The position numbers and the translations under genes were made by a program. Shown one piece after another: positions 3,725 through 17,421 of a DNA stretch of 64,000 nt. The DNA lies in assembly GCF_019112525.1 (NCBI RefSeq), contig NZ_CP077800.1, positions 3,906,001 through 3,970,000 on the forward strand, read 5' to 3'. Within the stretch, counting starts at the first letter, position 1; each line of letters opens with the position of its first letter. The notes below the pieces were generated by a model, which was not told the DNA's origin, ran no database searches, and saw nothing but the letters and a program-made list of their open reading frames with translations. The stretch comes from Modestobacter sp. L9-4. GTDB lineage: Bacteria > Actinomycetota > Actinomycetes > Mycobacteriales > Geodermatophilaceae.

Positions 3725-4224
3725 TGGGCGCCGCCCGGGTCCTGCCCGCCCCCGAGCAGGAGGAGATCCCGTTGCCCCCGGCCCTGCCCTCGGCCGCCGC
3801 CCAGCTGCTCGGCCAGGCCCACCGCGGGCTGGCCGAGGCGACCGGCAGCCCCGACGCCGGCTGGCGGTACGCCACCGCGCACCTGGCCGCGCTGCGCGCC
3901 GCCGCCGCGGTGCTGGCCGCCCGCACCCAGCCCGACGCCGACGCCGGCCGGCGCCGCCCCCGCAGCGCCTGGGTGCTGATCAGCCAGGTCGCCCCCGAGC
4001 TGGGCGAGTGGGCGGCGTTCTTCGCCGCCGGGGCGGCCAAGCGGGCCGCTGCGGAGGCGGGGCTGACGCACGCGGTCACCGAGCGGGAGGCCGACGACCT
4101 GGTCCGCGACGTGCGCACCTTCCTCGGTGTCGTGGAGACGACGATCAGCCGGCCGGCGCCGCCCCCGGCGCCGGTGCGCCTGCGGTCGATGGACGGCGGC
4201 CGTCGCCGGCCCTCCGCGTCGTGA
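3724..4224 (+). CDS. SAV_6107-family HEPN-domain protein
   Basis: A 166-residue, largely alpha-helical protein matching the SAV_6107 HEPN family of actinobacteria. The helical core runs from about residue 22 to 145 (QLLGQAHRGLAEA, WRYATAHLAALRAAAAVLAA, ELGEWAAFFAAGAAKRAAAEAG) followed by a Pro/Arg-rich tail. R48-YATA-H53 fits the Rx4-6H motif that in other HEPN proteins forms an RNase active site, but activity here is untested. It overlaps DUF6504 by one base (TGATG) and DnaE2 by four (GTGA 4221-4224), so it is co-translated with the mutagenic polymerase and probably SOS-induced. Its partner or substrate is unknown. Confidence 0.78.
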   Translation: MGAARVLPAPEQEEIPLPPALPSAAAQLLGQAHRGLAEATGSPDAGWRYATAHLAALRAAAAVLAARTQPDADAGRRRPRSAWVLISQVAPELGEWAAFFAAGAAKRAAAEAGLTHAVTEREADDLVRDVRTFLGVVETTISRPAPPPAPVRLRSMDGGRRRPSAS

Positions 4225-7200
4225 GTGACCCCTTCGTCCACCTGCACGTCGCCTCGGGCTACTCGATGCGGCACGGCGCCAACCACCCGGCCGACCTGGT
4301 CACCCGGGCGGTCGACCACGGCATGGGGGCCCTGGCGCTCACCGACCGCGACGGCCTCTACGGGGCGGTCAAGTTCGCCCTCGCCGCCCGCTCGGCGGGC
4401 ATCCGCCCGCTGTTCGGCGTCGACCTGGCCGTCGACCCGGTGGCCGGCGGCGAGCCCGGTGAGTCCGGGCGCACCCGCGCCGCCGACCTGCACCGCGCCC
4501 GCCACCCGGCCGGCCGCCGGGCGCCGGCGCGCGGCGGGGCCAGCGTCGACCCGCGGCTGCCCCGGGTCACCTTCCTCGCCAAGGACGGCGCCGGCTGGCG
4601 GTCGCTGTGCCGGCTGACCAGCGCCACCCACCTCGCCGGCACCCGCGGTGAGCCGGTCAGCTCGCTGACCCTGGCCGGGGAGCACGCCACCGGCCTGCTG
4701 GCGGTGCTCGGGCCCGGCTCCTCGGTCGGCCGGGCACTGGCCGACGGTCGCGCCGACCTCGCCCGGGCCCGGCTGGCCGCCTGGCGGTCGGTGTTCGGCC
4801 CCGGCCAGCTGGTGGTCGAGATCGTGCACCACCGCGGGCAGGGCGACCGCTCCCGCGCGCAGGCGCTGTTGGCGCTGGCCACCGAGGCCGGTGTGCCGGC
4901 GGTGCTCACCAACGCGGTCCGCTACGTCGACGCCTTCGACGCGCCCACCGCCGACGTCCTCGACGCCGCCCGCCGGCTGGTGCCGCTGGGGGAGCGGCAC
5001 GTCGACCGGCGCACCGCCGAGGGCCACCTGAAGTCGGGCAAGGAGATGGCCGAGGTCGCCGAGGACATCGCCGGCCCCGACCGCGACGTCGCCCTGCGGC
5101 TGATGGAGACCACCGCCCGGATCGCCGAGCAGTGCGCCGTCGACGTCCGCGAGGACCTCGGCATCGGCACCGTGCGCTACCCCGAGCTCGACGTGGTCAC
5201 CACCGCCGCCGAGCGCGGCATGGGCCCCGCACAGGTGCTGCGGGCCCGGTGCGAGGCCGGCTTCGGCCGGCGGGGGATGACCCCCTCGGGTGCGGTGCGC
5301 GAGCGGCTGGAGTCCGAGCTGGGGGTGATCGAGCAGCTGGGCTACCCGTCCTACTTCCTCACCGTCGCCGACGTCGTCGCCCTGATCAAGGAGCTGCGGG
5401 TGCGGGCCGCGGCCCGCGGCTCGGGCGCCGGCAGCCTGGTCACCTACCTGCTGGGCATCTCCGACGTCGACCCGATCCGCTACGGCCTGCTGATGGAGCG
5501 CTTCCTCTCCCCGCTGCGCCACCAGCTGCCCGACATCGACATCGACGTGGAGTCCGCCCGGCGGATGGAGGTCTACGACGCGGTGATCGACCGCTTCGGG
5601 GCGCACCGGGTCAGCTGCATCTCGATGATGGACACCTACCGGGTGCGGCACGCCATCCGCGACGTCGGTGCCGCGCTCGGGCTGCCGCCGGCCGAGGTCG
5701 ACGCGGTGGCCAAGGCGTTCCCGCACATCCGGGCCAACCAGGTGCACGCCGCGCTGCGCGACCTGCCGGAGCTGCGGGCCAGCCGGATGGGCTCCAAGCG
5801 GGGTGGCGGCAACGGTGACCTCGACCTGATGTTCGACCTGGTCGCCCGGCTCGACGGGCTGCCCCGGCACATCGCGCTGCACCCGTGCGGGGTGCTGCTG
5901 TCCGACGCGACGCTGCTGGACCGCACGCCGGTCGAGAGCAGCTACCTGGGCTACCCGATGAGCCAGTTCGACAAGGACGACGTCGAGGAGCTGGGGCTGC
6001 TCAAGCTCGACCTGCTCGGCATCCGGATGCAGTCGGCGATCGCCCACGCCATGGACGAGGTGGCGCGCGTCGACGGCGAGGAGCTCGTCATCGACGAGGT
6101 GCCGCGCGACGACCCGACCACCTTCGAGCTGATCCGCAGCACCCGCACGCTGGGCATGTTCCAGATCGAGTCACCGGGGCAGCGGGAGCTGGTCGGCAAG
6201 TTCGGTCCGCAGACCTTCGAGGACCTCATCGTCGACATCTCGCTGTTCCGCCCGGGGCCGGTGAAGAGCGACATGGTCACCCCGTTCCTGATGGCCCGGA
6301 ACGGCTGGCGCGACCCGGTCTACCTGCACCCGGCGCTGCAGCCGGCGCTGGAGGAGACCGCCGGGGTGGTGGTCTTCCACGAGCAGGTGCTGCAGATCGT
6401 GTCGGTGATGACCGGCTGCGACCTGGCCAGCGCTGACGAGGTGCGCCGTGCGCTCGGGGAGAAGGACGCCCACGCCGAGGTCAAGGCGTGGTTCGCCCCC
6501 CGGGCGCTGGAGGAGGGCTACGACGTCGAGGTGGTCGAGAAGGTGTGGGAGGTGCTGGTCGCCTTCGGCTCGTTCGGCTTCTGCAAGGCCCACGCCGCGG
6601 CCTTCGCGCTGCCCACCTACCAGTCGGCCTGGCTCAAGACCCACCACACGGCGGCGTTCCTCGCCGGGGTGCTCACCCACGACCCGGGCATGTACCCCAA
6701 GCGGCTGATCCTCGACGACGCCCGCAACTTCGGCGTGGCCGTGCTGGGGCTGGACGTGAACGCCTCGGCCGGCAGCTACCGGATCGAACGGGTCGACGGC
6801 GGCGGTGCCCACGACGGACCGGCCGACCCCGACCCGGAGCCCGACGAGGACGGCGGGGTGGAGCTCGTGCCCCGGCCGCCGTGGATGCCCGCGGCGATGC
6901 CCGAGCCCGGGCGGTACGGCATCCGGCTGTCGCTGGCCGACGTGAAGGGGATCAACGACGAGGAGCTCGCCCGGATCGTCGAGGGGCAGCCCTACCGGTC
7001 CCTCACCGACTTCTGGAACCGGGCGAAGGTGTCCCGGCCGGTGGTGGAGCGGCTGGTGCTGGCCGGCGGGTTCGACTCGATCTACGGGTTCGGGGTGCGC
7101 GACAGCGAGGGCGGGCGGCCGGCCCGGCGCCGCGAGCAGCTCACCCGGCGCGACCTGCTGCTGCAGATCGGCGAGCTCGACCGGTGGAGCCGCAGCGGGG

Positions 7201-8006
7201 CGAGGGCCAGCAGCACCGGCCAGCTGGGACTGGACCTGTTCGGCGCCGACAGCGGTGCCGAACCCGGGCTGTTCGACGTCGGCGAGGCCGGGGAGGACAC
7301 CGGCCAGCCGGAGTTCGTCAGCTCCGGGCTGCCGGAGTTCACCGACGCCGAACGGGTGCGCGCCGAGCTGGAGGTGCTGGGGCTCGACGCCAGCCGGCAC
7401 GTCATCGAGTTCTACCGGCCGTTCCTGGCCGCGCTCGGTGCGGTGCCGGCCGCCGACCTGCTGCAGTGCCGGAGTGGTGCGGAGGTGCTGGTGGCCGGGG
7501 TGAAGGTGGCCACCCAGACCCCGCCGATCCGGTCCGGGAAACGGGTGGTGTTCGTGACCCTCGACGACGGCACCGGGTGTGCGGACTCGACCTTCTTCGA
7601 GGACGTGCAGGGCCCCTACGCCTCGACCGTCTTCCACTCCTGGCTGCTGGTGGTCCGCGGGGTGATGCGCCGCACCGGGCCGCGCGGGGTCTCGATGCGG
7701 GCCACCGGCGCCTGGGAGCTGCCGGCGCTGCACGAGGCGTGGGAGGCCGGCGGCATGGCCGCGGTCGCGGAGCTGATGGCCACACCGGGGGAGTACACCG
7801 AGCAGGCGATCAGCGGGGCGGCGGCCTCCTACGGGCCCCGGCCGGTGGTGGTCCGGCCGGTGCTCGTCCACCCGACCGGCTTCCGCATGTCGCCCTACGC
7901 CGACATCAAGCCCGCCGGCGACGACGCCGCGACCGCGATCCGCCGCGCGGCGGCCGAACCCCCGCGCAAGCTCTGGCACTCCAGCCCCGGCAGCTCCGGC
8001 CACTGA
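4221..8006 (+). CDS. dnaE2: Error-prone DNA polymerase III alpha subunit DnaE2 (ImuC)
   Basis: A 1261-residue C-family polymerase, the SOS mutasome catalytic subunit that copies damaged DNA together with ImuB. The N-terminal PHP domain (HLHVASGYSMRHGAN) lacks the second His of the canonical HLHVHTEYS, as is usual in DnaE2. Catalytic aspartates lie in LPDIDIDVES near residue 436 and a third carboxylate follows further on; the fingers, helix-hairpin-helix and OB domain (DGTGCADSTFFED) are present. It is about 100-200 residues longer than typical DnaE2 because of low-complexity inserts near residues 73-113, 858-890 and 990-1033. GTG 4221 overlaps the HEPN stop. No imuA' or imuB is in the window. 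Confidence 0.95.
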   Translation: MSDPFVHLHVASGYSMRHGANHPADLVTRAVDHGMGALALTDRDGLYGAVKFALAARSAGIRPLFGVDLAVDPVAGGEPGESGRTRAADLHRARHPAGRRAPARGGASVDPRLPRVTFLAKDGAGWRSLCRLTSATHLAGTRGEPVSSLTLAGEHATGLLAVLGPGSSVGRALADGRADLARARLAAWRSVFGPGQLVVEIVHHRGQGDRSRAQALLALATEAGVPAVLTNAVRYVDAFDAPTADVLDAARRLVPLGERHVDRRTAEGHLKSGKEMAEVAEDIAGPDRDVALRLMETTARIAEQCAVDVREDLGIGTVRYPELDVVTTAAERGMGPAQVLRARCEAGFGRRGMTPSGAVRERLESELGVIEQLGYPSYFLTVADVVALIKELRVRAAARGSGAGSLVTYLLGISDVDPIRYGLLMERFLSPLRHQLPDIDIDVESARRMEVYDAVIDRFGAHRVSCISMMDTYRVRHAIRDVGAALGLPPAEVDAVAKAFPHIRANQVHAALRDLPELRASRMGSKRGGGNGDLDLMFDLVARLDGLPRHIALHPCGVLLSDATLLDRTPVESSYLGYPMSQFDKDDVEELGLLKLDLLGIRMQSAIAHAMDEVARVDGEELVIDEVPRDDPTTFELIRSTRTLGMFQIESPGQRELVGKFGPQTFEDLIVDISLFRPGPVKSDMVTPFLMARNGWRDPVYLHPALQPALEETAGVVVFHEQVLQIVSVMTGCDLASADEVRRALGEKDAHAEVKAWFAPRALEEGYDVEVVEKVWEVLVAFGSFGFCKAHAAAFALPTYQSAWLKTHHTAAFLAGVLTHDPGMYPKRLILDDARNFGVAVLGLDVNASAGSYRIERVDGGGAHDGPADPDPEPDEDGGVELVPRPPWMPAAMPEPGRYGIRLSLADVKGINDEELARIVEGQPYRSLTDFWNRAKVSRPVVERLVLAGGFDSIYGFGVRDSEGGRPARRREQLTRRDLLLQIGELDRWSRSGARASSTGQLGLDLFGADSGAEPGLFDVGEAGEDTGQPEFVSSGLPEFTDAERVRAELEVLGLDASRHVIEFYRPFLAALGAVPAADLLQCRSGAEVLVAGVKVATQTPPIRSGKRVVFVTLDDGTGCADSTFFEDVQGPYASTVFHSWLLVVRGVMRRTGPRGVSMRATGAWELPALHEAWEAGGMAAVAELMATPGEYTEQAISGAAASYGPRPVVVRPVLVHPTGFRMSPYADIKPAGDDAATAIRRAAAEPPRKLWHSSPGSSGH

Positions 8007-10159: not shown

Positions 10160-11170
10160 TCAGGCGCGGGCGGTGACCTGCAGGGACTGCGGGTGCCAGG
10201 TGCGCCAGCGGCCGGGCCGGACCGCGGCGCAGGTGAGCCGCTGGGCGACGTCGGACAGCCGGCTCTCCACGGTGACCACGACGTCGCCGTCCGGCCCGGT
10301 CATCGTCACCTCGAAGCACTCGACCCCGGCGGCGGAGGACTCCAGGGTGCGCACCCCGCGGGGCGGCAGGTCCCCGACTCCCAGTAGCCCCAACTCCTCG
10401 CGGGCGTGCTGCTGGGCGGCCTGCGCCGCGGGCGTCAGCCCGGCCTTGCCGCGCAGCCACGGCAGTGCGACCTCCCCGGCGGCGTGCGCGGCGACCAGCC
10501 CGGCGCCGTCGGCCGGCACCTGGCCGTAGACGTACCCCCACGGCAGGACGACGACGTTGGCGGCGAACCGGTCCCCGCCCAGGTGGCTGGTCTCCCAGAC
10601 GTCGACCGCCGCCCCGCTCAGCGGCAACGCCCGGGCCAGCGGCCGGCCGCGCACCGCGCAGCACGCGTCGTGCGCCCCGTGCGTGCAGACCAGGTAGGTG
10701 GGCAGCGTGCTGGCCTCCCCGACCGAACCGTCCCAGGGCAGCTGCAGCAGCTCGGCGTCGGAGCTGCGGGTCGACCAGTGCACGGTCTCCACCCCGGGGG
10801 TGGTGTCGGCGACGGCCCAGCGCATGCCGGAGTCCGCCAGCCGCTCACCGGGGCGCCGCACCATCTGGATCCGCATGCCCAGCTCCCGGGCGCGGGTGGC
10901 CAGCCGGGAGGCCACGGCCCGGTCGAAACGGGACTCCAGCAGGGCGTCGCGCCCCCACGGCCCGGGCTGCTCCACCAGCAGCCAGCGCCGCGCCGGGGGA
11001 GCGGTGGCCACCGGTGAGTCGCCACGCACCAGCGCCTGCACCGAGCAGCGCGCCTCGTCGAGCCGGCCCGCCGGGGTCGAGCGCGGCGGGACCGGCTCGC
11101 CGGTGTCCTGGCAGAACTGGGGGTCGACGCCCGTGGTCTCAGGCTCCGGTGCGGTCGTCACTGTCCCCAT
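10160..11170 (-). CDS. Sucrase/ferredoxin-like protein (thioredoxin-like 2Fe-2S fold)
   Basis: A 336-residue member of the Suc_Fer-like family. Signature parts are CSVQALVRGD near residues 42-51, the CTHGAHDACCAVRGRPLARAL cluster near 168-188 with three Cys and two His, and ETSHLGGDRFAANVVVLPWG near 199-218. In related proteins these hold a 2Fe-2S cluster on a thioredoxin-like fold. The C-terminal third (LTPAAQAAQQHAREELG onward) is helical. The ATG at 11170 lies inside the last codons of the JmjC gene (32-base overlap), so the two are tightly coupled. A role as electron donor or redox partner for the oxygenase is inference. The substrate is unknown. Confidence 0.8.
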   Translation of the reverse strand: MGTVTTAPEPETTGVDPQFCQDTGEPVPPRSTPAGRLDEARCSVQALVRGDSPVATAPPARRWLLVEQPGPWGRDALLESRFDRAVASRLATRARELGMRIQMVRRPGERLADSGMRWAVADTTPGVETVHWSTRSSDAELLQLPWDGSVGEASTLPTYLVCTHGAHDACCAVRGRPLARALPLSGAAVDVWETSHLGGDRFAANVVVLPWGYVYGQVPADGAGLVAAHAAGEVALPWLRGKAGLTPAAQAAQQHAREELGLLGVGDLPPRGVRTLESSAAGVECFEVTMTGPDGDVVVTVESRLSDVAQRLTCAAVRPGRWRTWHPQSLQVTARA

Positions 11171-12467
11171 GATGCGCCGTCCCGCCGGAGCGGGCGTCGG
11201 GGACGATCGCGATCGACTGGGTGACCAGCCGGCGGGCCAGCGTGAGCTGGCCGGCGGCGTCCAGACCGGGCAGGTCGCCCACCCGCAGCTCACCGGCGGA
11301 CAGCAGGGCGGCCAGCGCCGGACGGGTGTCGGCCGGGAGGTCGTGGGTGCGGCGACCGGCCACCAGGGCCACCCGCTCACCGACCGGCTCGCGCAGCTGG
11401 GCCCGCAGCAGCGGCCGCACCTGCAGCACGGTGCCGGCGTCCAGGGCGGCGATCGCGGTGGACTGGGCCAACGGCGAGACCGGAGCCGGGCGCACCTGCG
11501 CCCAGGCGCGCGAACGCAGGGAGTCGGCGACCGCGGCCGGGTCGACGTCGGCGATCCAGCGCTGCAGGCCGGTGAGCACCGCGGCGACGTCCTCGGTGGT
11601 GGCCGAGGGGTCGGCCAGGTCGACGCCCAGCGGCAGGGAGCTGCGCAGCGCCGGGTCCTCGGCGGCGAGCACGCGCACCAGGTCCAACGCCGACTCGACC
11701 GCGCCCCAGCGGGTGACCGGGTGCACGCCGATGGTCAGGTGCGCGCTGATCTCACCGAGCGCGACCGCGGAGTGGATGTAGCCGCGCGGCAGGTAGAGGG
11801 CGTCCCCGGGGCGCAGCACCGTGTCGATCACCGGCGGGCGCCGTGCTGCGGCGGCGACCTCGTCGGGGCGGTCGGTCCAGGGGTGGGTGCGCAGCGGGTC
11901 GGTGAGCACCGGCTCGTGGATGGTCCAGTGCTTCTCCCCGGCGACCTGCAGCACGAACACGTCGTGCACGTCGTAGTGCGGGGAGAACCCGCGCGAGGAC
12001 GGCGGGGTGACGTAGGCGTTGACCTGCGTGGGGTGCCCGAGGTCGGCGGCGAGCTGGTTGGCGAAGGCGATCAGCGGCGGCCACAGCCGGTGCAGGCCCT
12101 GCAGGACCACGGTGCTGCCCTCGGCGAAGAGCCGGAGCACCGCGTCGGAGGACACCTGGTCGGCCACCTCGGCACCGGCGCCCTGCGGGCTGGTGAACCG
12201 CTTGGGGTCGACGACCGCGCCGTCCTTGGCGATCCGCAGGAAGGGCGTGCGCAGCCCGCGGGTGCTCAGCAGCTCGTCGACGGCGTCCAGGTCCAGCAGG
12301 TCGGTGAAGGTGCCGCCCAGCTCTGCGGCGGTGGACAGCAACGGGGTGCGGGACCAGTGCTCGTCGGCGAAGACCTGCGGGTCGACGCGGATGCAGCGGC
12401 GCAGCGCCGGACGGGCGCCGTCCTCGGAGGAGGACGGCGCCCGGTCCTGCAGATCAGGGTCGGGCAC
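11139..12467 (-). CDS. JmjC/cupin_4-type 2-oxoglutarate Fe(II) oxygenase
   Basis: A 442-residue protein of the JmjC ribosomal-oxygenase-like group (YcfD/MINA53/NO66 relatives), enzymes that hydroxylate Arg or His side chains of proteins using Fe(II), O2 and 2-oxoglutarate. The iron triad is visible: H164-x-D166 in FSPHYDVHDVF and H232 in LPRGYIHSAVAL. GEKHWTIHEPV after the first motif and the winged C-terminal region match the family layout. The GTG start is only 2 bases after the stop of the repeat peptide gene and has a poor Shine-Dalgarno, implying coupling. Immediate linkage to a peptide with a repeated Gln-His-Asp motif makes that peptide the obvious substrate candidate; this is inference. 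Confidence 0.85.
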   Translation of the reverse strand: MPDPDLQDRAPSSSEDGARPALRRCIRVDPQVFADEHWSRTPLLSTAAELGGTFTDLLDLDAVDELLSTRGLRTPFLRIAKDGAVVDPKRFTSPQGAGAEVADQVSSDAVLRLFAEGSTVVLQGLHRLWPPLIAFANQLAADLGHPTQVNAYVTPPSSRGFSPHYDVHDVFVLQVAGEKHWTIHEPVLTDPLRTHPWTDRPDEVAAAARRPPVIDTVLRPGDALYLPRGYIHSAVALGEISAHLTIGVHPVTRWGAVESALDLVRVLAAEDPALRSSLPLGVDLADPSATTEDVAAVLTGLQRWIADVDPAAVADSLRSRAWAQVRPAPVSPLAQSTAIAALDAGTVLQVRPLLRAQLREPVGERVALVAGRRTHDLPADTRPALAALLSAGELRVGDLPGLDAAGQLTLARRLVTQSIAIVPDARSGGTAHHGDSDDRTGA

Positions 12468-12469
12468 GG

Positions 12470-12812
12470 TCAGGCCGAGCCGTCCGCGCCGCCGTCGTGC
12501 TGGCCGGGGGTGCCGCCGCCGGCACCGGAGTCGGCCGGGCCCTCGGCGCCACCGTCGGCACCGCCGTCGGCACCGCCGTCAGCGCCACCGTCGGCAGCGC
12601 CGTCCGCGCCGCCGTCCTGCTGGCCGGGGAAGCCGCCGCCGGCGCCCGAGTCGTCCGGGCCCTCGGCGCCACCGTCGGCGCCGCCGTCGTGCTGGCCGGG
12701 GGTGCCGGCACCGGCACCGGAGTCGGCCGGGCCCTCGGCGCCACCGTCGGCACCGCCGTCGTGCTGACCCGGGGTGCCCTCGCCGGCACCGGAGTCGGCC
12801 GGGCCCTCGGCG
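12470..12812. repeat. Four tandem copies of a 72-bp coding repeat, one with a 48-bp insertion
   Basis: The repeats underlying the acidic peptide are close to identical at the DNA level, including third codon positions, for example the shared block GTCGGCCGGGCCCTCGG on the plus strand. The insertion is itself a short 12-bp tandem (ADGG codons). This indicates recent expansion or gene-conversion homogenisation rather than old diverged repeats. Confidence 0.85.
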
Positions 12813-12841
12813 CTGGTCATGTCGTCGTCGTCGAAAGCCAT
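12470..12841 (-). CDS. Acidic tandem-repeat peptide, candidate JmjC substrate or multicore precursor
   Basis: A 123-residue protein with no recognised family. After MAFDDDDMTS it consists of a 24-residue unit repeated four times (residues 11-34, 35-58, 59-98, 99-123). Each unit runs AEGP-DSGAG-x-G-T/F-PGQ-H/Q-DGGADGG, and copy three carries a 16-residue (ADGG)4 insertion. It contains no Lys, Arg, Cys, Tyr or Trp and is strongly acidic, so it should be unstructured. ATG 12841 has a Shine-Dalgarno (CGGAG) at a proper distance; a GTG at 12895 would add 18 residues but has no spacing. The stop is 2 bases before the JmjC start. A short leader followed by repeated cores resembles RiPP precursors, but this is inference. 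Confidence 0.72.
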   Translation of the reverse strand: MAFDDDDMTSAEGPADSGAGEGTPGQHDGGADGGAEGPADSGAGAGTPGQHDGGADGGAEGPDDSGAGGGFPGQQDGGADGAADGGADGGADGGADGGAEGPADSGAGGGTPGQHDGGADGSA

Positions 12842-12940
12842 GGGGCTGCTCCGCTCGTCGCTGGTGGCGGTCGCCGGGAGGCGGCCGTCGGGCACTTCCT
12901 ACCGCAGTGATCCACCCGGCACACATCCGGTCACCTGTGG

Positions 12941-16078: not shown

Positions 16079-16094
16079 TCGAACACGTGTTCGA
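16079..16094. promoter_or_regulatory. LexA (SOS) box upstream of dinB
   Basis: TCGAACACGTGTTCGA is a perfect 16-bp palindrome and identical to the core of the SOS box at 3274. It lies 101 bases before the dinB start codon. LexA control is inferred from the match and the Y-family polymerase downstream. Confidence 0.9.
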
Positions 16095-16194
16095 CCGTGG
16101 GGACGGTCGGGGACGAGGGGACGTGCCGGGGGAAGCCGGCACGGGGAGCGGGGCTGCGCCGGGGGAAGCCGGTGCGGCGGGAGAGGGGTGTCCG

Positions 16195-17421
16195 GTGTCC
16201 GATCGCGCTGCCGGCTGCACGGTGCTGCACGTCGACATGGACGCGTTCTTCGCCAGCGTCGAGGTGCGCCGCCACCCCGAGCTGGCCGGCACGCCGGTCA
16301 TCGTCGGCGGGGTGGGCAACCGGGGCGTGGTCACCTCGGCCACCTACGAGGCCCGCGCGTACGGGGTGCACAGCGCCATGCCGACCTCCCGGGCCCTGCG
16401 GCTGTGCCCGACGGCCACCGTGCTCCCCGGCGACCTCGCGCTCTACACCGAGGTCTCCCGGTCGGTGATGGCGCTGTTCCGCACGATCACCCCGCTGGTG
16501 GAGCCGCTGAGCCTGGACGAGGCGTTCCTCGACGTCTCCGGCTCCGGCCGGCGGCTGGGCGACCCGGTGGCCATCGGCGAGCACATCCGGGCCCGGGTGT
16601 TCGACGAGCAGGGCATCACCTGCTCGGTCGGTGTCGCCGGCACCAAGTTCGTCGCCAAGCTCGCCTCCACCCGCTCCAAGCCCGACGGGCTGCTGGTGGT
16701 GCGCCCGGCCGAGGTCATGGACTTCCTGCACCCGCTGCCGGTCGGTGCGCTGTGGGGCGTGGGCGCCAAGACCGAGGAGGTGCTGCTGCGGCTGGGGCTG
16801 CGCACCGTCGGCGACCTGGCGCACGTCCCGGCCCGCACCCTGCAGCGCGCGGTGGGCGCCGCCGCCGGGGCGCACCTGCACGAGCTGTCCTGGGGCCGGG
16901 ACCCGCGGCGGGTGGTGCCGAACGAGCCGGACCGCTCGACCGGGGCGGAGGAGACCTTCGGCACCGACGTCGACGACCCGCAGGTGATCCACCGCGAGCT
17001 GCTGCACCTGGCCGAGCGCACGGCGGGGCGGCTGCGCTCCACCGGCCACCTGACCCGCACGGTGAGCATCAAGGTGCGCTTCGCCGACTTCACCACGATC
17101 ACCCGCTCGCGCACCCTGAAGGTGCCCACCGACGTCGGTCAGGAGCTCTACGACACCGCCCGCGCGCTGTTCGACGCCCTCGGCCTGGACCGCGCCCGCA
17201 TCCGGCTGGTGGGGGTGCGGGCCGAGGGGCTGGTCGAGGCCGACGCCACGGCTCGCCAGCTGGAGCTCGGCGCCCGCGAGCACGGCCGACGGGACGCCGA
17301 GCTCGCCGCCGACGCCGCCGCCCGGCGCTTCGGGGCCGGTGCCGTCCGCCCGGCCACCCTGCTCGGCCGCGGGCGCACCCCCGGCACCGGCCGCCCACCC
17401 CGCCCCGGAGCAGGGCGTTGA
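16195..17421 (+). CDS. dinB: DNA polymerase IV (Y-family translesion polymerase)
   Basis: A 408-residue Y-family polymerase that bypasses lesions with low fidelity. Visible motifs: VLHVDMDAFFASVE (first catalytic Asp), AYGVHSAMPTSRA, PLSLDEAFLDVSGS with the catalytic DE pair, CSVGVAGTKFVAKLAST, and the LWGVGAKTEEVLLRLGL helix-hairpin-helix. The little-finger domain (TVSIKVRFADFTTITRSRTL) is complete; a Pro/Arg-rich C-terminal tail could hold a clamp-binding peptide, but no clear one is seen. GTG 16195 follows GGAGAGGGG and gives the usual N terminus; upstream in-frame sequence holds a duplicated 15-base stretch and looks non-coding. The LexA box upstream predicts SOS induction. Confidence 0.95.
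   Translation: MSDRAAGCTVLHVDMDAFFASVEVRRHPELAGTPVIVGGVGNRGVVTSATYEARAYGVHSAMPTSRALRLCPTATVLPGDLALYTEVSRSVMALFRTITPLVEPLSLDEAFLDVSGSGRRLGDPVAIGEHIRARVFDEQGITCSVGVAGTKFVAKLASTRSKPDGLLVVRPAEVMDFLHPLPVGALWGVGAKTEEVLLRLGLRTVGDLAHVPARTLQRAVGAAAGAHLHELSWGRDPRRVVPNEPDRSTGAEETFGTDVDDPQVIHRELLHLAERTAGRLRSTGHLTRTVSIKVRFADFTTITRSRTLKVPTDVGQELYDTARALFDALGLDRARIRLVGVRAEGLVEADATARQLELGAREHGRRDAELAADAAARRFGAGAVRPATLLGRGRTPGTGRPPRPGAGR

Follow-up and report, generated by a model that had tools for sequence, protein, structure and literature searches.

Hydroxylation of a ribosomally synthesized and post-translationally modified peptide (RiPP) precursor by a JmjC enzyme has an established example in the biphenomycin pathway, where BipG is described, in the available portion of PMC12707348, as an ornithine γ-hydroxylase that modifies a side chain of the ribosomally made precursor. 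BipG acts on one ornithine, in a pathway that also includes an MNIO, a radical SAM enzyme, an arginase and a TldD-type protease (same portion), and bacterial JmjC homologues in RiPP-like contexts are mentioned in the accessible part of PMC12710340. The product residue that we predict here, 3-hydroxyaspartate in a ribosomal peptide, is shared with PesHI, an MNIO modifying one Asp (partial text of PMC13060819), and with SmaO (mentioned in the partial text of PMC13097080). We have analyzed a three-gene locus at positions 10160-12841 (minus strand) of a 64,000-nucleotide stretch, hereafter the window, of contig NZ_CP077800.1 from Modestobacter sp. L9-4 (positions 3,906,001 to 3,970,000), whose genome is a single contig of 4.22 Mb. 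The locus encodes an Asp-rich repeat peptide, a NO66-like JmjC oxygenase and a sucrase/ferredoxin-like (Suc_Fer-like) protein. Unlike in the BipG pathway, no obvious modifying enzyme other than the JmjC protein is encoded here, and a multicore Asp repeat is the putative substrate; unlike PesHI, the enzyme is of the JmjC type and its predicted sites are many. The locus seems to represent an apparently undescribed RiPP-like system centred on a NO66-type JmjC protein and Asp-repeat multicore peptides. The strings DGGADGG, EGPADGG, HDGGADG and GPADSGAG occurred in no paper of a text search limited to open-licence PMC papers. Iyer et al. 2010 reportedly covers peptide-modifying dioxygenases, and an earlier mention of this system there is possible.

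We consider it rather probable that the NO66-like JmjC enzyme β-hydroxylates Asp residues of a RiPP-like multicore peptide, the two being encoded with a putative accessory [2Fe-2S] protein in a three-gene cassette. The original prediction of three almost fused genes on the minus strand, which carries all the features located below, was confirmed by their coordinates and by Pfam. The first gene (12470..12841), delimited by open reading frame (ORF) reading, a codon-position test and homologue comparison, encodes a 123-residue Asp/Gly/Ala-rich peptide, the presumed substrate, which begins MAFDDDDMTSAEGPADSGAGEGTPGQHDGGADGG. Its N-terminal leader, MAFDDDDMTSA (12809..12841), recognized in the sequence and by pattern comparison across homologues, is followed by a repeat region (12473..12808) made of four 24-residue units, with the consensus EGP[AD]DSGAGxGxPGQ[HQ]DGGADGxA, and extra DGGA tetrads. 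Codon positions 1, 2 and 3 carry 6, 15 and 37 pairwise differences between these four long units, and this skew toward position 3 supports the frame as translated. A GGAG motif (12849..12852), by eye a plausible ribosome-binding site, lies 7 nt upstream of the peptide ATG. The JmjC gene (11139..12467; 442 residues) has a GTG start 2 nt past the peptide stop codon, and the start of the Suc_Fer-like gene (10160..11170) sits within the JmjC gene, giving an overlap of 32 nt.

Alignments and a structural model show the JmjC protein as a predicted Fe(II)/2-oxoglutarate oxygenase of the NO66/MINA/YcfD fold. Pfam placed it in JmjC_2 (E=4.3e-27), and its profile had as best solved relatives NO66 (1.9e-37), MINA, a Rhodothermus YcfD-like enzyme, YxbC and YcfD. 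An AlphaFold2 model, with a predicted local distance difference test (pLDDT) score of 88.5, gave NO66 as best Foldseek match (E=3.9e-27, prob 1.00, template modeling score 0.64). The Fe triad H164, D166 and H232, said at the outset to be intact, is invariant in 29-row and 48-row alignments. Every row of the peptide-linked groups in a wider alignment retains N150, Y152 and K179; K179, which we take to bind 2-oxoglutarate, aligns with the Lys of NO66 GRKLW. The protein thus resembles the ribosomal oxygenases (ROX) NO66, MINA53 and YcfD (JmjC_2, PF08007) in its JmjC fold, its C-terminal helical and mixed α/β part, and the alignment of its Fe triad and of the Lys of the G-x-K-x-W motif. It differs from them in its operonic repeat peptide and in the H168-D169 pair that follows HxD, present in every row of the peptide-linked groups, where the aligned NO66 positions are I-E. 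The C-terminal end of the model consists of strands and then helices, an arrangement that could bear on a possible RiPP recognition element (RRE), but ROX enzymes carry a winged helix in any case.

The pairing of peptide and oxygenase was followed in other genomes, searches of 150 genomes of the order and 394 of the class giving JmjC matches in 90 and 127, respectively. The order search returned about 104 match rows, of which 91 fall in the analyzed loci and 13 (fragments, second copies and weak matches) were left out; from the class search, 30 loci, 40 regions, some larger regions and 18 further regions were used and the remaining rows left out. For named loci, at least 567 stretches were confirmed and the 80 best retained, among which the closest JmjC relatives of the window enzyme are from Modestobacter. 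A set of 240 loci with a JmjC gene was reduced, by removing 19 duplicate JmjC sequences, to 221 distinct ones, 11 of which are cut upstream, leaving 210 with upstream room. Peptides were called by an automatic filter (Asp ≥10%, repeated 4-mers ≥25%), which misses many His-free repeat peptides and single-core ones that a second pass or inspection recovered. A filter-positive peptide lies directly upstream of 134 of the 135 JmjC genes scoring above 550 bits, 40 of 47 at 450-550, 3 of 5 at 370-450, 3 of 9 at 240-370 and 0 of 14 at 100-240 bits, in bins that are not independent of the scoring profile (A1), itself built from loci of the same kind. By comparison, 0 of 3,749 other same-strand ORFs pass the filter. 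A chance ORF in GC-rich DNA is ruled out by this background together with the codon-position test, and a local peculiarity of the window genome by the matches across the order, the class and beyond. Peptide and oxygenase thus form a coupled, conserved pair, strongly supported by the close homologues. Named genera carrying it include Micromonospora, Salinispora, Kribbella, Actinokineospora, Cellulomonas, Herbiconiux, Geodermatophilus and Modestobacter.

The original prediction had proposed a search for related JmjC genes lacking the peptide, and its outcome is divided. Among the closest homologues, the only miss is L158 (Kribbella pratensis), where an out-of-phase repeat-like sequence looks frame-shifted. 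Six of the seven misses at 450-550 bits (L072, L073, L074, L078, L079 and L082) have, by eye or second pass, Asp-rich His-free upstream peptides, mostly of the GDADQGDS type. Repeats are lacking at L224 and L226, to which we return below, and no Asp-rich peptide was seen at several distant JmjC loci (e.g., L083, L084, L086-L088, L230 and L239), so the pairing characterizes certain JmjC clades and does not extend to JmjC_2 proteins as a whole. Beyond the class, matches came from 28 genomes, and the 10 best-scoring loci (L275-L284, of 15 new) were read. All 10, from other classes of the phylum, have Asp-bearing repeats upstream, such as DADGTDGDGTDGTDGDS and DADAADADASD, and a Suc_Fer gene adjoins 8 of them. 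At L281, a very different repeat, ADGTDQGVEGGTYGPRD, sits in a 466-residue ORF upstream of the JmjC gene.

The upstream peptides at the 210 loci comprise 172 of DGGA type, 16 of DxDG type (including GDADQGDS, DADADSTD, DGTD and similar cores), 5 caught by a loose DPDP rule, of which the L090 and L091 labels are regular-expression artefacts that also entered the JmjC tree, and 17 unlabelled. A maximum-likelihood tree was built from 81 JmjC rows, the 45 DGGA-type rows among them being a random draw; on it, peptide type changes 10 times versus a shuffled mean of 33.6 (0 of 200 shuffles as low), a contrast to which near-copies contribute. Peptide type follows the enzyme tree. Five of the 17 unlabelled loci carry the single-core peptide ...VEVEDLAEVTSRDITAGGDSDGTDSSSDFI or close variants, and of 18 more loci from that enzyme family, 16 have a single core of the D-x-D-G-T-D type, one has none and one is truncated; we take the D-x-D-G-x-D core of these peptides to resemble calcium-binding loops. 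At L235-L238, L242 and L252-L267, the single-core peptide GGDSDGTDSSSDFI and close variants lie upstream of the JmjC gene, mostly with a FhuF-like gene downstream. At L089 and L091, both from the same order as the window genome, a distant JmjC gene follows a 43-residue peptide ending AADNDGNDG, of DNDGND type by eye, and Suc_Fer lies about 470-490 bp downstream.

That a separate operon passenger should behave in this manner seems unlikely. The explanation in question, that the JmjC protein serves as a ribosomal oxygenase with a ribosomal protein as substrate while the repeat peptide is unrelated or regulatory, is consistent with the ROX-type fold and with the window genome containing just one JmjC_2 gene above the family cut-off. 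A passenger would, however, hardly adjoin the enzyme through several classes while switching type with it, and an S9 peptidase and an ABC transporter accompany some distant relatives, a RiPP-like setting.

The layout of the peptides also agrees with a modified precursor. The short acidic leader followed by repeated cores, as predicted for the window peptide, is supported by a common leader pattern, acidic residues followed by a position that is usually I or M and then by T or S, which was matched by 139 of the 172 DGGA-type and 13 of the 16 DxDG-type peptides, and a similar acidic-I/V leader is visible by eye in most of the 10 other-class loci. A separate leader and variable cores, with a modifying enzyme encoded beside the precursor, as at 134 of the 135 close loci, are among the features by which RiPP systems are recognized. 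The peptide might instead need no modification and serve as an acidic scaffold for binding or regulating the JmjC or Fe-S protein. Its low-complexity acidic repeat, which varies in length (5-23 counted units, median 12), would suit such a role, as would the lack of any recurring protease or exporter recognized nearby. We find this very unlikely, since a leader with Asp cores is common to all peptide types, as in a modified precursor, and single-core relatives exist.

Several observations count against β-hydroxylation of Asp in a RiPP-like cassette, as does the dependence of the score bins on their own profile. At L224 (450-550 bits) and L226 (next bin), the enzyme falls within the DGGA clade and the upstream peptide is acidic and non-repetitive, that of L226 reading ...DGDDPELAGADLDEDQSEGRGPTIEPGA; we have recorded both loci as natural loss or replacement of the repeats. 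The leader pattern fails in 33 of the 172 DGGA-type peptides, some through misplaced trimming and several truly, including lineages whose peptides start MSEQNPEGPADGG. One of 14 DxDG-type rows in the wider JmjC alignment has V at D166. In 18 genomes chosen because no Suc_Fer was seen beside the JmjC gene, a whole-genome search found none in 11, namely 10 of 10 Micromonosporaceae-like genomes and one other. IdeR boxes showed no excess in 186 upstream regions, which argues against iron regulation. Finally, 141 of the 172 DGGA-type cores contain His, and NO66 and MINA, the nearest solved relatives, are His hydroxylases according to their structure record titles.

These relatives provide the main structural argument for an enzyme that hydroxylates His in (Q)HD sites, as NO66 and MINA do on ribosomal proteins. 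The original prediction had likewise named the His of Gln-His-Asp sites as the target. The repeated cores that it described are present; the sites themselves vary, one window unit reading QQD. With cores delimited by rule, the position preceding DGGAD in the DGGA-type peptides holds A at 639 of 1,102 sites, H, the second commonest, at 238, Q at 77, S at 57, G at 50, T at 18 and R at 11, with rarer ones besides. The cores of 31 of 172 DGGA-type and 15 of 16 DxDG-type peptides lack His altogether, as do the DSDGTD single cores and, by eye, 8 of 10 other-class cores. In view of these His-free cores we reject His as a general target, and hydroxylation at His is to our mind improbable. Asp is the sole residue common to every linked core motif, and we infer from this that aspartates, not histidines, are likely the targets, with an enzyme that would read the leader or the units and oxidize Asp. 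The oxidation could in principle be of another kind, such as desaturation, decarboxylation or cleavage at Asp or the Asp-Gly backbone, and the SmaO/SmaX pair, which takes Asp to β-hydroxy-Asp and then to aminomalonate in two steps, is mentioned in the partial text of PMC13097080. The nearest solved JmjC_2 enzymes are, on the other hand, named hydroxylases in the titles of their structure records, and we give an outcome other than simple β-hydroxylation little likelihood.

As for the third gene, its product matched PF06999 (E=2e-17), and its best structural neighbours are thioredoxin-like [2Fe-2S] ferredoxins, the match being weak (E=9.1e-3, prob 1.00). In an alignment of 36 rows, C162, H164, H167, C170, C171, H196 and C314 are invariant. 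Position 200, four past H196, which we take as the fourth ligand position on the basis of the HX3H ligand spacing of Apd1, is Asp or, by eye, Cys in 5 of 36 rows, and never His. By Pfam and weakly by fold, the protein is a PF06999 member without the two-His ligand set of Apd1. With yeast Apd1/Suc_Fer, as described in the available part of PMC11126956, it shares PF06999 membership and the thioredoxin-like ferredoxin fold; unlike in Apd1, the second His of HX3H is replaced by Asp and there are extra invariant Cys residues at 170 and 314.

The partner is frequent but dispensable. A same-strand Suc_Fer gene is present in 93 of 135, 39 of 47, 3 of 5, 4 of 9 and 3 of 14 loci from the highest to the lowest JmjC score bin, and 7 of the 18 genomes searched in full have Suc_Fer elsewhere, three genomes of one family about 7-8 kb downstream and three on another contig. 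In the single-core clade (family f31), a FhuF-like protein unrelated to Suc_Fer is encoded downstream on the same strand, 158-6,364 bp away, in 20 of the 22 genomes (of 25) that had a JmjC match in the class search. Pfam recognized a FhuF_C 2Fe-2S domain in both copies submitted to it; the two exceptions are a genome whose copy is on a different contig and a genome with neither this protein nor the peptide. The exchange of unrelated proteins suggests that the product is tied to a [2Fe-2S] redox function and not to any single protein, and it provides a concrete lead to a metal-related role. The FhuF-like clade also strengthens the view that some [2Fe-2S] protein is a frequent partner. Its necessity as an electron donor, the original idea, is doubtful, because the 10 Micromonosporaceae-like genomes without Suc_Fer keep the pair and, to our knowledge, 2-oxoglutarate oxygenases need no ferredoxin for turnover. 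What is left of that idea is a tentative accessory redox role.

In the mechanism that we propose, the three-gene cassette would yield an oxidized repeat peptide. The short acidic leader, conserved in sequence, probably docks on the JmjC protein, which would then work along the repeats, β-hydroxylating Asp in Asp-Gly or Asp-x-Asp units. The product would be a polyacidic, multiply hydroxylated peptide. It is probably retained in the cell because no signal sequence was seen by eye and no recurring protease or transporter was recognized beside the DGGA type. Its likeliest use may be to bind a hard metal ion, Fe(III) or Ca(II) for example, and the Suc_Fer-like protein, or the FhuF-like protein in another clade, could have an accessory redox role, perhaps in reducing bound iron, that would not be essential to the oxygenase step; metal binding and the reductase role are both weak proposals. 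Extended to the whole phylum, we would put forward, as a tentative and rather doubtful proposal, a class of ribosomally encoded β-hydroxyaspartate-rich repeat peptides serving as intracellular iron or calcium buffers or depots, each made by one NO66-like JmjC enzyme and served by interchangeable [2Fe-2S] reductases of Suc_Fer or FhuF type. If β-hydroxylation by the JmjC protein is correct, the cassettes form a large RiPP-like family in which a JmjC protein is the only obvious modifying enzyme. FIH hydroxylates ankyrin repeats, and these cassettes would be a bacterial parallel to such hydroxylation of repeat proteins. Because enzyme and substrate share an operon, the specificity of an NO66-type fold would become directly testable.

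Neighbouring genes were surveyed as ORFs within 3 kb of genus-labelled named DGGA-type loci, in the best 25 clusters. Those spanning at least seven genera were the peptide and Suc_Fer, plus the antisense frame of the latter. Clusters of three to six genera mostly reflect synteny inside Micromonosporaceae or Geodermatophilaceae, and a single upstream gene is shared by four Micromonosporaceae genera and Cryobacterium. No protease, leader peptidase or exporter was recognized by eye among the recurring neighbours in these clusters, in line with the earlier remark that none adjoins the window locus; RiPP clusters usually, though not universally, encode a leader peptidase or an exporter. In the DPDP-type relatives L243 (Streptomyces clavuligerus), L246 and L247, the JmjC gene stands beside an S9 peptidase and an ABC transporter, and because none such was recognized among the recurring DGGA-type neighbours, the DGGA product may stay inside the cell. 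The L243 locus (L243:5808-7203), on a S. clavuligerus plasmid, encodes a distant JmjC protein with the precursor-like peptide ...VIADNDPSDPPIAIADPDPFDPVI, and L246 and L247 likewise combine a distant JmjC protein and a precursor-like peptide with the peptidase and transporter; these three cassettes look like exported RiPPs. On a Pseudanabaena galeata plasmid (L285), some 2.8 kb separate a JmjC_2 homologue (cupin domain-containing protein) from the gene of a LanM lanthipeptide synthetase.

Upstream of the peptide genes, a GTT-N14-18-GGGTA[CT] pattern, partly chosen after the sequences had been viewed, occurs at 29 of 170 DGGA-type loci, compared with a shuffled mean of 0.4 and 0 of 166 controls; 22 of 25 listed matches are Micromonosporaceae-like and hence not independent. 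The GTT-N-GGGTAC element, which in our view resembles SigB/SigF stress promoters, is exemplified by L036, L039, L040 and L046. In the window, a tentative promoter-like GTGTG-N-CGGTA (12900..12924), likewise picked after viewing the sequences, matches other Modestobacter loci too. NCBIfam gave no meaningful family for the peptide, the JmjC protein or the Suc_Fer-like protein, PHROGs matches were without function, and a phage homologue search was empty. The region is flanked, on the plus strand, by an ORF resembling by eye an error-prone DNA polymerase III α subunit (DnaE2-like; 4008-8006) and by one resembling, again by eye, a Y-family polymerase (16087-17421).

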